A DNA stretch of 64,000 nt, taken from the NCBI GenBank assembly GCA_000511875.1, contig AZIN01000001.1, forward strand, positions 1,495,332-1,559,331, given 5' to 3'. Position numbers and translations under genes: made by a program. Positions 15,092 to 55,344 of this stretch are shown piece by piece. The notes under the pieces were generated by a model. It did no database searches, was not told the origin of the DNA, and saw only the letters and a list, made by a program, of their open reading frames with translations. Position 1 is the first letter of the stretch. Each line of letters starts with the position of its first letter. This DNA is from Gammaproteobacteria bacterium MOLA455. GTDB taxonomy: Bacteria > Pseudomonadota > Gammaproteobacteria > Pseudomonadales > Porticoccaceae.

Positions 15092-15301
15092 ATGTCGGAT
15101 AGAGTTTCTGGCACTGTTAAGTGGTTCAACGACAGTAAAGGTTTTGGTTTCATCGAGCAAGAAGGCGGCGGTGACGTATTTGTTCACCACAGCGCAATCC
15201 AAGCTGATGGCTTCAAATCTCTGAAAGAAGGCCAAGCGGTAACGATGGAAGTTACTCAAGGTCAGAAAGGCGCTCAAGCTGAGAACGTAGTTGCCGACTA
15301 A
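15092..15301 (+). CDS. Cold-shock domain protein (CspA family)
   Basis: A 69-residue single cold-shock domain that binds single-stranded RNA/DNA. RNP1 is KGFGFI and RNP2 is VFVHHSAI; it begins [18 protein letters not shown]. The start is ATG 15092, with TGAGG seven bases upstream; an in-frame GTG at 15080 overlaps that site and is rejected. Monocistronic, with its own promoter and a strong terminator. Whether it is cold-induced cannot be decided. Confidence 0.96.
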
Positions 15302-18133: not shown

Positions 18134-20476
<2,343 letters not shown>

Positions 20477-51503: not shown

Positions 51504-52142
51504 ATGGATTTAAATCATATCAATTATCAGGGCGTTACATTTCTAACCAGCGCCCCCTCAATCAAACAATGTCCTGAAGACAGTGGTTGTGAAGTTGCCT
51601 TTGCCGGGCGCTCCAACGCTGGCAAATCCAGTGCAATTAATACGCTTACGCGCATCCGCGGACTGGCCCGAACCAGTAAAACTCCCGGGCGAACCCAGCT
51701 GATTAATTTCTTTGACCTGGGCAATGATAAGCGCTTGGTCGATCTTCCCGGATACGGCTATGCCAAAGTGCCTATAGAGATGAAGCGTGAGTGGGACCGG
51801 GATTTAGCAGAGTACTTGCAGTTGCGCCAAAGCCTTGCGGGGCTGGTGTTGCTGATGGATATTCGCCACCCGCTGCAAGAGTTTGACCTGCAGATGCTTA
51901 ATTGGGCTGCGCAAGCTGGATTGCCCGTGCATATTTTGCTGACCAAGTCAGACAAGCTCAAACGGGGGCCAGGACAGAGCGCGCTATTAATGGTTGAGCG
52001 GCATCTGCGCAATATGGATCCGGGTTGCACTTTGCTTAGCGTGCAGACGTTCTCTTCTTTAAAGAAGTCGGGGTTGCCACAACTGGAGTCTGTGCTGGCT
52101 CACTGGATGAACTCAGACTTTGTTGATCCAGCTACCAGCTAA
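51504..52142 (+). CDS. yihA: Ribosome biogenesis GTPase YihA/EngB
   Basis: A 212-residue essential GTPase that assists 50S assembly. G1 is [11 protein letters not shown]3 is [10 protein letters not shown]4 is LLTKSDK. The ATG at 51504 gives an N-terminus ([17 protein letters not shown]) matching E. coli YihA; a frame open from 51360 adds 48 non-conserved residues and would overlap the cytochrome c4 start. It is convergent with polA, as in E. coli and Pseudomonas. Confidence 0.95.
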
Positions 52143-52213
52143 ACAATTCAGCGGCCTCTGCAAGACTTCACCCGCATCCCTTTAAAAGCCCCTTGCGTAG
52201 CAAATTCCAAAGC

Positions 52214-52244
52214 AAAAAAAACCCGGCTCAAAATTGAGCCGGGG
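52214..52244 (-). terminator. Strong intrinsic terminator in the polA-yihA gap
   Basis: On the minus strand a near-perfect 10-bp stem (CCCGGCTCAA / TTGAGCCGGG) is followed by eight T. It can end polA transcripts and the candidate sRNA described here. Confidence 0.93.
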
Positions 52245-52319
52245 TCTGCGTTGCTTTGCTTGGGAGTTTCAGCGTTGCAGTTGCTTAGGTTGGGGGGAGA
52301 GTAAGCAATCATGTCTTGC
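52214..52319 (-). ncRNA. Candidate Spot 42/ErsA-like small RNA
   Basis: The 300-base gap between polA and yihA is where spf (Spot 42) lies in enterics and ersA in Pseudomonas. Here a promoter-like element (52325-52351), about 75 bases without an open frame, and a strong Rho-independent terminator with a T8 tail define a transcript of about 105 bases, the size of Spot 42. It contains a C-rich, apparently unpaired CTCCCCCCAACC (about 52290-52301) able to pair with ribosome-binding sites, followed by the terminator hairpin, the layout of an Hfq-dependent sRNA. I see no clear primary-sequence match to Spot 42. The evidence is position and architecture only. Confidence 0.45.
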
Positions 52320-52324
52320 CCTAT

Positions 52325-52351
52325 TTAAGACAGACTGAAACGAAATAGTTC
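52325..52351 (-). promoter_or_regulatory. Possible promoter of the candidate sRNA (sigma-E/AlgU-like)
   Basis: On the minus strand GAACTA (52351-52346), a 15-base spacer and TCTTAA (52330-52325). This resembles the GAACTT-N16-TCTGA pattern of extracytoplasmic sigma factors such as AlgU, which controls ersA in Pseudomonas; the match is imperfect. Confidence 0.3.
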
Positions 52352-52444
52352 ACAAATAATTTAAATAAAATGAAAATAATTTCTACCCCGAGAGCAAACC
52401 TCTATTTTATTCGCCCTTTTAAGCACCTAATCGACTAGAAAATC

Positions 52445-55231
52445 CTAGTGTGCTTCATCCCAGTTATCGCCTATACCAATATCAACCACCAGAGGCACCA
52501 ACAGCTCGGCGGCGCTCTCCATAAGATCGTTAACACCTTTTTTCACCTCATCCATCTCCGATTCTGGAACTTCTAAAACCAATTCATCGTGCACCTGCAT
52601 AATAATTTTGCTGGTCAAGTCGCTGTTTTCCAGCCAGTTATGCACATTGATCATCGCTAGCTTAATAATATCCGCAGCGGTGCCCTGCATTGGTGCATTG
52701 ATCGCAGTGCGCTCGGCGGCCTGACGGCGCATGCCGTTGCTGGCGTTTATTTCCGGCAGATAGAGTCGACGACCAAAAACGGTTTCGACAAAGCCATTTT
52801 CCGCTGCGGTGTGGCGAATATTATTCATATAGTTTTGCACCCCAGGATAGCGGGTGAAGTAGAGCTCAATATATTCCGCCGCTTGCTTGCGGTTGATGTT
52901 CAGCTGGCGCGCCAAACCAAAGGCAGACATGCCATAAATCAGACCAAAATTAATCGCCTTGGCACTGCGGCGCTGATCGATAGTCACCTCTTCGGCCGCG
53001 ACACCAAAGACTTCCGCAGCAGTGGCGCAGTGAATATCCTGACCGGCACTAAAGGCGGCCAACAAGCTGGGATCTTCGGACAGGTGCGCCATAATACGCA
53101 GCTCGATCTGAGAGTAATCCGCCGCCACTAGCTTACAGCCGGGAGCAGCAATAAAGGCCTGTCGCACTCGGCGGCCCTCGGCGCTGCGGATGGGGATATT
53201 TTGTAGATTGGGATCCGACGAGGAGAGTCGTCCGGTAGCGGTTCCCGATTGATGATAAGAGGTATGAATTCGCCCGGTGACCGAGTTGATCATGGTCGGC
53301 AGCTTATCAGTGTAAGTGGATTTTAATTTTGCAAGACCGCGATGCTCTAATAATACTTTGGGCAATGGATATTCCAATGCCAGCTCTTGTAGCACTTCTT
53401 CTTTGGTGGATGGTGCACCCTTAGCAGTTTTCTTCAGCACCGGGATCTGCAGTTTTTCAAAAAGTATTTCGCCGAGCTGCTTTGGCGAGGCCAGATTAAA
53501 CTGCTGCCCGGCTAATTCCCAGGCTTCTGTTTCAAGCTCCCCTAATCGCGCTGAGAGTTCCTGGCTCTGTTGAAATAACAATGTGTCATCCACCAGCGCG
53601 CCGCTGCGTTCAATACAGGATAAGACTGGGACCAGTGGTAGCTCAATATCTTCAAAAACTTTTTTCAGTGTTGCCTCGGCAGCTACTCGCGGCCACAGGG
53701 CGTGGTGGAGTCGCAGGGTAATATCTGCATCTTCAGCGGCATAGGGCCCGGCCTGCTCGAGGGCTACCTGATTAAAGGTTAACTGCGCGGCGCCTTTTCC
53801 AGCCACGTCGGAAAATTTGATGGTCTCTTCGCCCAGGTAGTTGAGAGCCAAGCTGTCCATATCATGGCGACTCGCCACCGAGTCGAGAACATAGGATTCA
53901 AGCATGGTGTCGAAAGCGATGCCGCGGAGTCTGATGCCATGTTGGGCGAGCACGCTCATATCGTATTTTAAATTTTGACCCACTTTGGGGAATGCGGGAT
54001 CTTCCAAATAAGGCTTGAGACTCTCAAGCACAAACTCAGACTTAAGCTGCACCGGCGCGCCCATGTAGTCGTGGGCAAAGGGAATGTAACAGGCCTCCCC
54101 CGGGGCTGTAGACAACGAAATACCCACCAGTTGAGCACGCATATAATCGAGACTGGTGGTTTCTGTATCTACTGCAACTAGGTCAGCGGATTTGATTTTG
54201 TCAATCCAACTAGCCAGCTCTTGCTCGGTCAAAACGACCTGATAATCTTTGGCAATCACGGGCGCATCAACAGGAGCTGCAACCAGATCATCCAACTCAT
54301 CGGTAATTGGGGTTGCGGCTGTCGCGGCTGGTTTGGGGTTAGAATTGTTCTGAGAATTAGATTGGGCCTCGTCAATCCAGGTCTTAAATTCCATATCCTT
54401 AAATAGGCTGAGCAAGGCCGCGTTATCCGGCTCGCCGTTCTTCAGCTCAGACAGATGGACGGGCATTTCAACATCGGTCTTAATGGTCGCTAGCTTGTAA
54501 GAGAGATAGGCCAGCTCTTTATTGGCCAGCAGTTTCGGCGACATGGTTTTAGCGCCGCGAAAGGCTAACCCGGCTACCTCATCTAAATTCGCGTAAATAT
54601 CATCCAAGCCACCAAGGCCCTGAATTAATCCCAGGGCAGTCTTCTCTCCAACACCTGGGACGCCGGGAATGTTGTCCGATTTGTCACCCAAGAGCGCCAG
54701 ATAATCAATAATGAGCTCTGGGGGAATACCGAATTTCTCGATCACCCCTGCCCTATTCATGGCACTGTTGTTCATGGTGTTAATCAAGGTGATATGCTCG
54801 TTGACCAATTGAGCAATATCTTTATCACCAGTGGAAATCACCACTGCCTGTTTTGCTGCGGTCGCCTGCACCGCCAAAGTGCCAATGACATCGTCGGCCT
54901 CGACGCCGTCAATAATTAGCATGGGCATACCCATGGCCTCAATAATCTCATGGATCGGGGCTATCTGGTCTCGCAGGTCGTCAGGCATCGGCGGCCGATT
55001 GGCTTTGTACTCAGTGTAAATCTCATCGCGGAAGGTTTTGCCCTTGGCATCAAAGACCACCACATGGGTGCTGTCTGGATAGTCTTTCTGCAGACGCCGC
55101 ATCATATTGATCACACCCTTAACTGCACCGGTAGGCTTGCCTTTACTGTTGGTCAGTGGTGGCAACGCATGGTAGGCGCGATAGAGGTAGGAGGAGCCAT
55201 CGACGAGAATCAGCGGGGTTGTAGTGTCCAT
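52445..55231 (-). CDS. polA: DNA polymerase I
   Basis: A full-length (928-residue) Pol I for repair and Okazaki fragment processing. Domains in order: 5'-3' exonuclease (about 1-290; ILVDGSSYLYRAYHA, VEADDVIGT), 3'-5' exonuclease (about 325-520; AVDTETTSLDYMRA and the AEDADITLRLH end, so the proofreading acidic residues are kept) and polymerase (TATGRLSSSDPNLQNIPIR, AADYSQIELRIMAHLS, RRSAKAINFGLIYGMS, MQVHDELVLEVP). ATG 55231 is used; a GTG three codons upstream is also in frame. A Q/N/P-rich linker lies at about 295-315. Confidence 0.97.
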   Translation of the reverse strand: MDTTTPLILVDGSSYLYRAYHALPPLTNSKGKPTGAVKGVINMMRRLQKDYPDSTHVVVFDAKGKTFRDEIYTEYKANRPPMPDDLRDQIAPIHEIIEAMGMPMLIIDGVEADDVIGTLAVQATAAKQAVVISTGDKDIAQLVNEHITLINTMNNSAMNRAGVIEKFGIPPELIIDYLALLGDKSDNIPGVPGVGEKTALGLIQGLGGLDDIYANLDEVAGLAFRGAKTMSPKLLANKELAYLSYKLATIKTDVEMPVHLSELKNGEPDNAALLSLFKDMEFKTWIDEAQSNSQNNSNPKPAATAATPITDELDDLVAAPVDAPVIAKDYQVVLTEQELASWIDKIKSADLVAVDTETTSLDYMRAQLVGISLSTAPGEACYIPFAHDYMGAPVQLKSEFVLESLKPYLEDPAFPKVGQNLKYDMSVLAQHGIRLRGIAFDTMLESYVLDSVASRHDMDSLALNYLGEETIKFSDVAGKGAAQLTFNQVALEQAGPYAAEDADITLRLHHALWPRVAAEATLKKVFEDIELPLVPVLSCIERSGALVDDTLLFQQSQELSARLGELETEAWELAGQQFNLASPKQLGEILFEKLQIPVLKKTAKGAPSTKEEVLQELALEYPLPKVLLEHRGLAKLKSTYTDKLPTMINSVTGRIHTSYHQSGTATGRLSSSDPNLQNIPIRSAEGRRVRQAFIAAPGCKLVAADYSQIELRIMAHLSEDPSLLAAFSAGQDIHCATAAEVFGVAAEEVTIDQRRSAKAINFGLIYGMSAFGLARQLNINRKQAAEYIELYFTRYPGVQNYMNNIRHTAAENGFVETVFGRRLYLPEINASNGMRRQAAERTAINAPMQGTAADIIKLAMINVHNWLENSDLTSKIIMQVHDELVLEVPESEMDEVKKGVNDLMESAAELLVPLVVDIGIGDNWDEAH

Positions 55232-55344
55232 ATTTTCCACGAAGTTGTTGATAGGAGAAGCATTAGTATTGAAGCTGCAGGATACAGGATTTTGCCGGGC
55301 CTGTTGATAGTTGATAGATTCGGCGAGCCGCTTAATCCATCGCT

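Follow-up and report, generated by a model that had tools for sequence, protein, structure and literature searches.

In Pseudomonas aeruginosa, the AlgU-controlled small RNA (sRNA) ErsA is encoded in the gap between polA and engB and, in the accessible text of three reports, represses oprD together with Hfq (PMC5819304, PMC8575079, PMC7264166). The sRNA sX13 of Xanthomonas lies directly downstream of polA and uses C-rich loops to act on start regions rich in G. According to the accessible text of that report, the apical loops of sX13 carry 4C or 5C, G-rich motifs are found near the start codons of the mRNAs that it represses, and Spot 42 and the alpha-r7 sRNAs are noted by its authors at the same locus (PMC3771888). 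ChvR of Caulobacter is described, in the part of the paper available, as a dedicated sRNA that represses the mRNA of a TonB-dependent receptor, its stem-loops pairing with the leader (PMC6237742). The enteric sigma-E sRNAs are induced by sigma-E and lower the mRNAs of outer-membrane proteins, again by the accessible text (PMC1804206).

As a working model, the RNA predicted here in the Porticoccaceae would be like ErsA in its control and place and like sX13 in its pairing chemistry, and is assigned to neither by sequence. With ErsA it shares the polA–engB/yihA gap, the polA strand and, at the level of the motif, a sigma-22/AlgU (RpoE)-type promoter; a sigma-E-like motif also follows polA at the corresponding position in ErsA-like loci. 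The bodies differ, as ErsA is described as a 132-nt RNA with a U-rich unstructured domain II, a block that is absent here, and there is no convincing sequence similarity. ErsA is also described as acting with Hfq on an outer-membrane protein mRNA, that of oprD, in its start region, whereas its counterparts here are a candidate target and an hfq gene. With sX13 the likeness, drawn from the description of that RNA and not from its sequence, lies in the position after polA, a predicted C-rich apical loop (62 of 68 elements here) and high conservation between variable flanks. However, sX13 is described from Xanthomonadaceae only, has three C-rich loops and is Hfq-independent, and the accessible text mentions no sigma-E promoter (PMC3771888). 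The alpha-r7 sRNAs of alpha-proteobacteria, likewise compared by their description, resemble it in the polA locus and in apical C-rich motifs (PMC3771888). ChvR is comparable in having the leader of a TonB-dependent receptor as its target, which is a candidate here, but it is under ChvI-ChvG control and Hfq-independent as far as the accessible text goes (PMC6237742). Spot 42 (spf, RF00021) occupies the same position after polA, but no covariance match to it was obtained here, and its targets, as described, belong to carbon metabolism. Spot 42 is controlled by cAMP-CRP. RybB and MicA, which are enteric sigma-E sRNAs, use seed regions at the 5' end and not a C-rich loop and, unlike the RNA predicted here, are encoded at loci other than the polA gap.

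A predicted sRNA gene in the polA–yihA gap

The host is a member of the SAR92-clade Porticoccaceae, and its five closest polA relatives (95–97% identical) include HTCC2207. In the window, which is the whole 64,000-nt stretch of DNA analyzed, a 302-bp gap separates the convergent genes polA (minus strand, 52445..55240, stop at 52445; Pfam DNA_pol_A, E 3.7e-168), the upstream flank, and yihA/engB (plus strand, 51504..52142, stop at 52142; Pfam MMR_HSR1, E 3.8e-17), the downstream flank. The analysis confirmed that this gap holds a predicted sRNA gene that is conserved and unannotated, has a promoter of the envelope-stress type and contains a C-run. The minus-strand features on which the first-pass annotation had based its candidate, GAACTA-N15-TCTTAA, a C6 run and a T8 terminator, were all found there, with a predicted RNA of ~109 nt.

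The putative promoter (52325..52351, minus strand, as are all parts of the element) is of the sigma-E (RpoE/AlgU) type, with the sequence GAACTA at –35 (52351-52346) and TCTTAA at –10 (52330-52325) separated by a spacer of 15. The predicted sRNA, a conserved block of ~109 nt whose start was placed from the promoter, covers 52214..52322. When it was folded with the Cs kept unpaired, the hairpin UUGCUUA-CUCUCCCCCCAACC-UAAGCAA (52281..52308) presented the C-run in its loop; the C6 run itself (52292..52297), which has an invariant core of four Cs in the SAR92-type sequences and lies within ACUCUCCCCCC, is the proposed pairing site. A second box, ACUCCCAAG (52259..52267), is conserved in the A1 sequences and may serve as a second pairing or chaperone site; its variants in A1 include ACUCUCCAAG and CUCUCCGAG, and it is degenerate in L046, L049 and L053. 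The intrinsic terminator (52214..52243) found by the terminator scan consists of a G+C-rich stem (52243-52222) followed by T8 (52221-52214). The earlier description of this terminator was right as to the stem and the T8, and the stem was scored by the scan as 9 pairs with a 4-nt loop, not as 10 pairs. A sigma-70-like scan of the gap revealed no promoter on the minus strand. A covariance model built from 36 SAR92-type sequences (R1), of which the window is one, scores the window sRNA at 87 bits.

No Rfam family reached its gathering score in the whole window, and the weak matches (mir-4524, ylbH and others), all far under their gathering scores, were rejected. The proposed assignment to Spot 42 was also rejected: RF00021 gave nothing at the gathering score in the window and was absent from 52000-52600 at E values up to 10, and a covariance search of the whole genome gave nothing while detecting the E. 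coli control. As for the literature, no paper on this SAR92/Porticoccaceae polA-gap RNA was found among the top-ranked open-licence PMC papers, which is a weak negative.

We propose, with a probability of about 0.6, that the gap encodes a stand-alone RpoE-controlled sRNA whose C-box silences outer-membrane mRNAs, a TonB-dependent receptor being the best candidate target. According to this model, RpoE would be freed from RseA under envelope stress and would drive the synthesis of a terminated RNA of ~109 nt. Probably assisted by Hfq, its exposed UCUCCCCC would then pair with outer-membrane mRNAs at their G-rich Shine-Dalgarno regions, the translation of the receptors would fall and the envelope would be relieved. 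For a group of marine bacteria, the model amounts to a large answer that can be put to the test. It links the polA locus of many families in one order with a sigma-E-like promoter and proposes that a TonB-dependent receptor of the SAR92 clade is under post-transcriptional control.

Relation to ErsA across the order

There is a nearly even chance that the RNA is a diverged ErsA orthologue, i.e., that one ancestral sigma-E sRNA at polA had its body rewritten in each family. For the examination of this relation, polA was sought in 293 genomes of the order and matched in 288, and 58 polA-downstream stretches from outside the family were examined, some of which were the best-scoring loci and the rest of which were hand-picked across families. 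In 22 of the 58 stretches, including most of the ErsA-like loci, the polA strand carried a sigma-E-like motif no more than 250 nt beyond polA, and none of the 58 carried it on the other strand (shuffle control: mean 0.8, maximum 5), which agrees with a common origin. The motif was seen in 15/20 stretches with an adjacent yihA and a gap of at least 120 nt, and in 7/33 in which yihA was not found; a C4 run followed it in 21 of the 22 cases (15.7 in shuffles, maximum 19). After polA in 13 more loci of other lineages (L081-L083, L085-L088, L090-L095) no such motif was found.

The loci of family f21 resemble Pseudomonas ErsA in place and architecture, from which we infer their ErsA identity, and they have a U-rich block in common with the f8 and f35 loci (11 loci). 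ErsA-like RNAs with this block were also noticed in two families besides the Pseudomonas-like one (L111, L114, L124, L142, L154, L165), L154 having two copies. Against orthology, the U-rich block was not found anywhere in the Porticoccaceae set, whose 94 gaps and stretches include 16 from other lineages and some duplicates. The covariance models did not cross over convincingly either. The model R2, made from eight ErsA-like loci, recovered its training loci and the untrained f8 loci L114 and L124, but gave no significant match in the SAR92-type gaps, so that membership in ErsA by sequence was not borne out by this check; its best match in Porticoccaceae was the divergent locus L072. Applied to the loci outside Porticoccaceae, R1 gave nothing with an E value below 0.38. 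The locus L072, which is weakly matched at the same place by both R2 (E 0.0075) and R1 (E 0.0094), is a point in favor of the common ancestor.

Since neither model recognizes the other family while the place and the promoter are shared, the place and the promoter agree with ErsA and the body does not. By sequence comparison, the predicted Porticoccaceae RNA is an unrelated family at ErsA's place with a promoter of the same type. What is left of the original Spot 42/ErsA-type designation is therefore the ErsA-type locus, the ECF-type promoter and the C-rich segment, for which conservation gives good support, without the Spot 42 family and without membership in ErsA by sequence.

The C-box and its candidate target

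The sRNA folded better than its shuffled versions (z –2.36; 5 of 200 shuffles were as good). As the first-pass annotation had anticipated, the C-run is predicted to be exposed, the six Cs of the window sRNA being mostly unpaired (probability 0.64–0.95). The C-run hairpin competes with a 5' hairpin, GGGCAA/UUGCUU, which belongs to the minimum-energy fold, and the Cs are unpaired in both. With the Cs kept unpaired, the first C-run, the only one covered by this test, was placed in a hairpin loop in 62/68 elements, compared with 41.6 expected from shuffled flanks. The energies of the C-box hairpins were only modestly better than those of shuffles (mean z –0.3 to –1.3), the related sequences not being independent. 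The stems around the C-run vary by subgroup (UUGCUUA/UAAGCAA, UUGCAU/AUGCAA, AUCUC/GAGAU and AUUCUC/GAGAAU), and the two arms change together across the subgroups, as in UUGCU/AGCAA to UUGCA/UGCAA. The RNAalifold analysis of the 36-sequence alignment supported the terminator only, in which 9 of 11 pairs showed a double change in one or more sequences; for the Porticoccus copies, it supported two stems around the C-box as well.

The sequence GGGGGAGA was sought shortly before ATG in seven close genomes. The search gave 75 matches versus 45 for the reversed control, both the sRNA locus itself and overlapping matches being included, and 30 of the 75 were translated. The sole gene start found with GGGGGAGA in all seven genomes was that of a TonB-dependent receptor, which has the Pfam plug and barrel domains. 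We consider this receptor, with the leader AUCUCGGGGGAGAU, the best candidate target. The gene algC had been suggested as a target instead; in the gene at 18134-19555 of the window, which we take to be algC by its motif TASHNP, the leader has no G-run, and none of the 12 9-nt matches antisense to the C-box in the window lies near it.

The sRNA sequence CUCUCCCCC and the leader sequence AUCUCGGGGG(G)AGAU are complementary in 14/14 genomes in which both sequences are known, seven of which had served to pick the receptor. The same leader sequence is present in G031 and G017, and the G-run is kept in G066 and G067; it is missing from the receptor leader in G096 and in two small genomes, G029 and G055. 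In G026 and G030, the sRNA carries UCUCCCCCGAGA and the leader of a receptor homologue (48–49% identical) carries UUCUCUAGGGGAGAA, which gives a shorter match. In genus g12 (L116, L364; genome G096), the sRNA has CCCCCCUCU and the leader of the receptor homologue AGAGGG, the order of the letters being flipped on both sides with 6 bp only. Leaders were taken from 50 stretches, one of which gave no leader and one of which, L341, has a wrong start. Among the resulting 49 leaders of the receptor and its homologues, 29 contain AUCUCGGGGG(G)AGAU, 9 UUCUCUA(A)GGGGAGAA, 2 AUCCUGGGGGAU and 9 other sequences. An sRNA of the UUCCCCUAG type occurs in L044, L045, L051, L052, L055 and L056, and of the genomes with the leader type UUCUCUAGGGG, polA was found only in G026 and G030, whose sRNA is of another type. 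By a loose criterion, folding placed two or more Gs in a hairpin loop in 36 of the 41 distinct leaders. In L348:464-482 and its homologues, a TonB-dependent receptor gene begins with a conserved hairpin whose loop is G-rich, and the receptor leader hairpin could be a separate element in its own right. In the proposed mechanism, the hairpin AUCUC-GGGG-GAGAU of the receptor start region would allow an 8-bp pairing with the sRNA, either loop to loop or loop to ribosome site.

It is unlikely, though by no means negligibly so, that the sRNA is truly RpoE-controlled and its C-box acts elsewhere, as a protein titrator, as a sponge or on other mRNAs, the receptor hairpin being an unrelated translation element. 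The thermodynamic ranking by RNAduplex points in this direction in that it does not favor the receptor: its leader paired with the sRNA at –17.4 kcal/mol, which placed it 42nd among 57 leaders, and shuffling the leader gave an equally good value in 62 of 300 cases. The leader variants also each retain a hairpin of their own. In addition, GGGG stands at most 16 nt from the start in 18 of the 368 ORF leaders examined, in a scan that took the first ATG of the longest ORF as the start and misplaced some leaders, so one such leader is not rare. However, the G-run, with its drifting flanks, belongs to the most strongly conserved segments of the receptor leader before the start codon, and the complementarity to the C-box in all 14 genomes likewise argues for the receptor. 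The target and the mechanism of the proposed RpoE-controlled sRNA are well motivated, and we put them forward as unproven.

On a wider scale, we tentatively suggest that the post-polA stretch of the Pseudomonadales may be an old home of sigma-E-driven C-rich sRNAs, in which the promoter and C-box were kept and the body was rewritten in each lineage. ErsA would be one version and the SAR92/Porticoccus family another, sometimes in tandem or with a second sRNA elsewhere, and in the SAR92 lineage the C-loop RNA and the G-loop hairpin of the TonB receptor would be a co-maintained kissing pair.

Conservation of the element within Porticoccaceae

The gaps were excised from 80 polA loci of relatives and from further genomes. 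In the 13 group-A gaps, including that of the window, the mean pairwise column identity was 1.0 for GAACT and 0.87 for the RNA, and the flanks drifted, to 0.595 over the 80 nt after polA and to 0.344 downstream. The element DNA matched genomes of the same genus only (14 of 112 family genomes, its own counted). For the wider family, 64 Porticoccaceae-like loci were chosen by title and polA identity, some of which bear the titles Pseudomonadales, Cellvibrionales and, in one case, Flavobacteriaceae; the Halieaceae loci L077-L079 were excluded, L003-L015 were omitted as largely duplicates of loci taken from genome contigs, and three loci were cut off, which left 61 complete gaps. A GAACT-type –35, TCCCC and a T-run were present in 57/61, by a rule that required no –10 and accepted any T-run as a terminator. 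The expectation that the promoter and the C-rich segment would be conserved among relatives while the rest drifts was borne out. Three of the four exceptions, L047, L048 and L050, fail this rule; the fourth, L069, was counted as absent as it has the promoter and C-box but no scored T-run, and R1 finds it at E 3.8e-9. The gaps L047, L048 and L050 are SAR92-related, and the element has apparently been lost or has decayed in them; R1 matches are weak in L050 (E 0.08) and L048 (E 0.39, at the terminator end).

Tandem repetition of the element, twofold or threefold and with a separate –35, C-run and T-run for every copy, was seen in at least 11 of the 57 gaps. Three copies stand between polA and yihA in L059 and L061 and two in nine other Porticoccaceae-like loci, and R1 reveals a second copy in L060 also. 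On the untrained Porticoccus-type copies, R1 gave E values of 7e-11 to 3e-4, most of them below 1e-5. Counts over 68 elements leave out L071 and L072, which are divergent though among the 57, and L077-L079. A –10-like pentamer from a permissive list stands 15–17 nt after GAACT in 68/68 elements, and the first C-run is 4–8 long; UCU and four Cs are invariant in the 36 SAR92-type sequences.

Some matches of R1 were tried as further copies and rejected. The match G000:C1:578415-578523 (E 2.5e-5 / 1e-6), considered as a paralogue, lies at an ORF end with no GAACT-type promoter seen, and that at 15280 of the window (E 0.019) covers the terminator after an ORF end. The matches in 13 out-of-family genomes (E 8e-6 to 9e-4) were regarded as chance, none of the five with a known polA position being at polA. 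A copy of the polA-type sRNA was observed in G017 away from this genome's polA copy (L224:1410-1506; R1 E 7e-8), with GGAACTT...GTCCTA before it and a C-box. In the Halieaceae loci L077-L079, polA is followed by GAACTT and then by the hairpin CGTCTC-ACTTTCCCCA-GAGACG (L079 was folded).

The sigma-E-type promoter

The genome contains 18 occurrences of a GAACT-N15-17-TCTDA-type pattern and 35 of its reversed control, so the promoter match alone is not significant; it becomes significant because it is conserved. The –35 sequences of the 68 family elements are GAACTT (42), GAACTA (21), GAACTC (4) and AAACTT (1), a count that is partly built in because the elements were sought with a GAACT-type rule. 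The genome encodes RpoE (309 bits, above the NCBIfam cut-off), with RseA_N (Pfam) in the next gene, and Hfq, which is also over its cut-off. Upstream of rpoE, GAACTW...GTCTGT or a close variant is present in 18 of 23 genus genomes, and upstream of rseA, GAACCTT/GAACTTT...GTC[TA]TA in 23/23, both counts being made with no shuffled control. Because the same promoter type precedes rpoE and rseA, the control by sigma-E is well supported, and as the identity of the promoter rests on this comparison, the RpoE dependence of the sRNA is likely at the level of the motif. The promoter, C-box and terminator are shown by the alignments to be conserved as one block, with a promoter type that resembles those of rpoE and rseA in the genus. 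The observation is real as regards a conserved element, which is most likely sigma-E-dependent.

These data also bear on the possibility, which we regard as quite improbable, that the element is a conserved polA 3' UTR with its terminator, that any stable RNA is cut from read-through and that GAACT is not a working promoter. From the polA stop onward, the first terminator detected by the scan was that of the element, and excision from 3' UTRs is an established origin of sRNAs, as the accessible text of one report has it (PMC9438474). Against this possibility stand the –35 and –10 hexamers, conserved together with their spacing and resembling the rpoE and rseA promoters, the tandem copies that each repeat the –35, C-run and T-run, and the drift of the 80 nt adjoining polA. 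A small protein starting from the conserved ATG (MIAYSPP...) can practically be dismissed: its frame is open in the window, but changes in the length of the C-run cut it short in 10/13 group-A sequences, so the stretch is most likely non-coding, in agreement with the ~105 bases without coding potential described at first.

In the rpoE–rseA gap (L258-L280), the conserved sigma-E-like motif lies 71–142 nt before rseA in 23/23 genus genomes, and it may drive rseA separately or another RNA. A second sRNA candidate was observed in the same genome (L175/L228; G000:C1:15677-15812, plus strand), between a gene for an AraC-type regulator and an rlmKL-like gene. It has the same promoter type, GAACTTTTCAGAAAGGAGCGGTCTTA, two C5 boxes and a terminator, and it is matched with E values below 1e-6 in ten further genomes of the genus; G012, G043 and G013 also contain weaker second matches.
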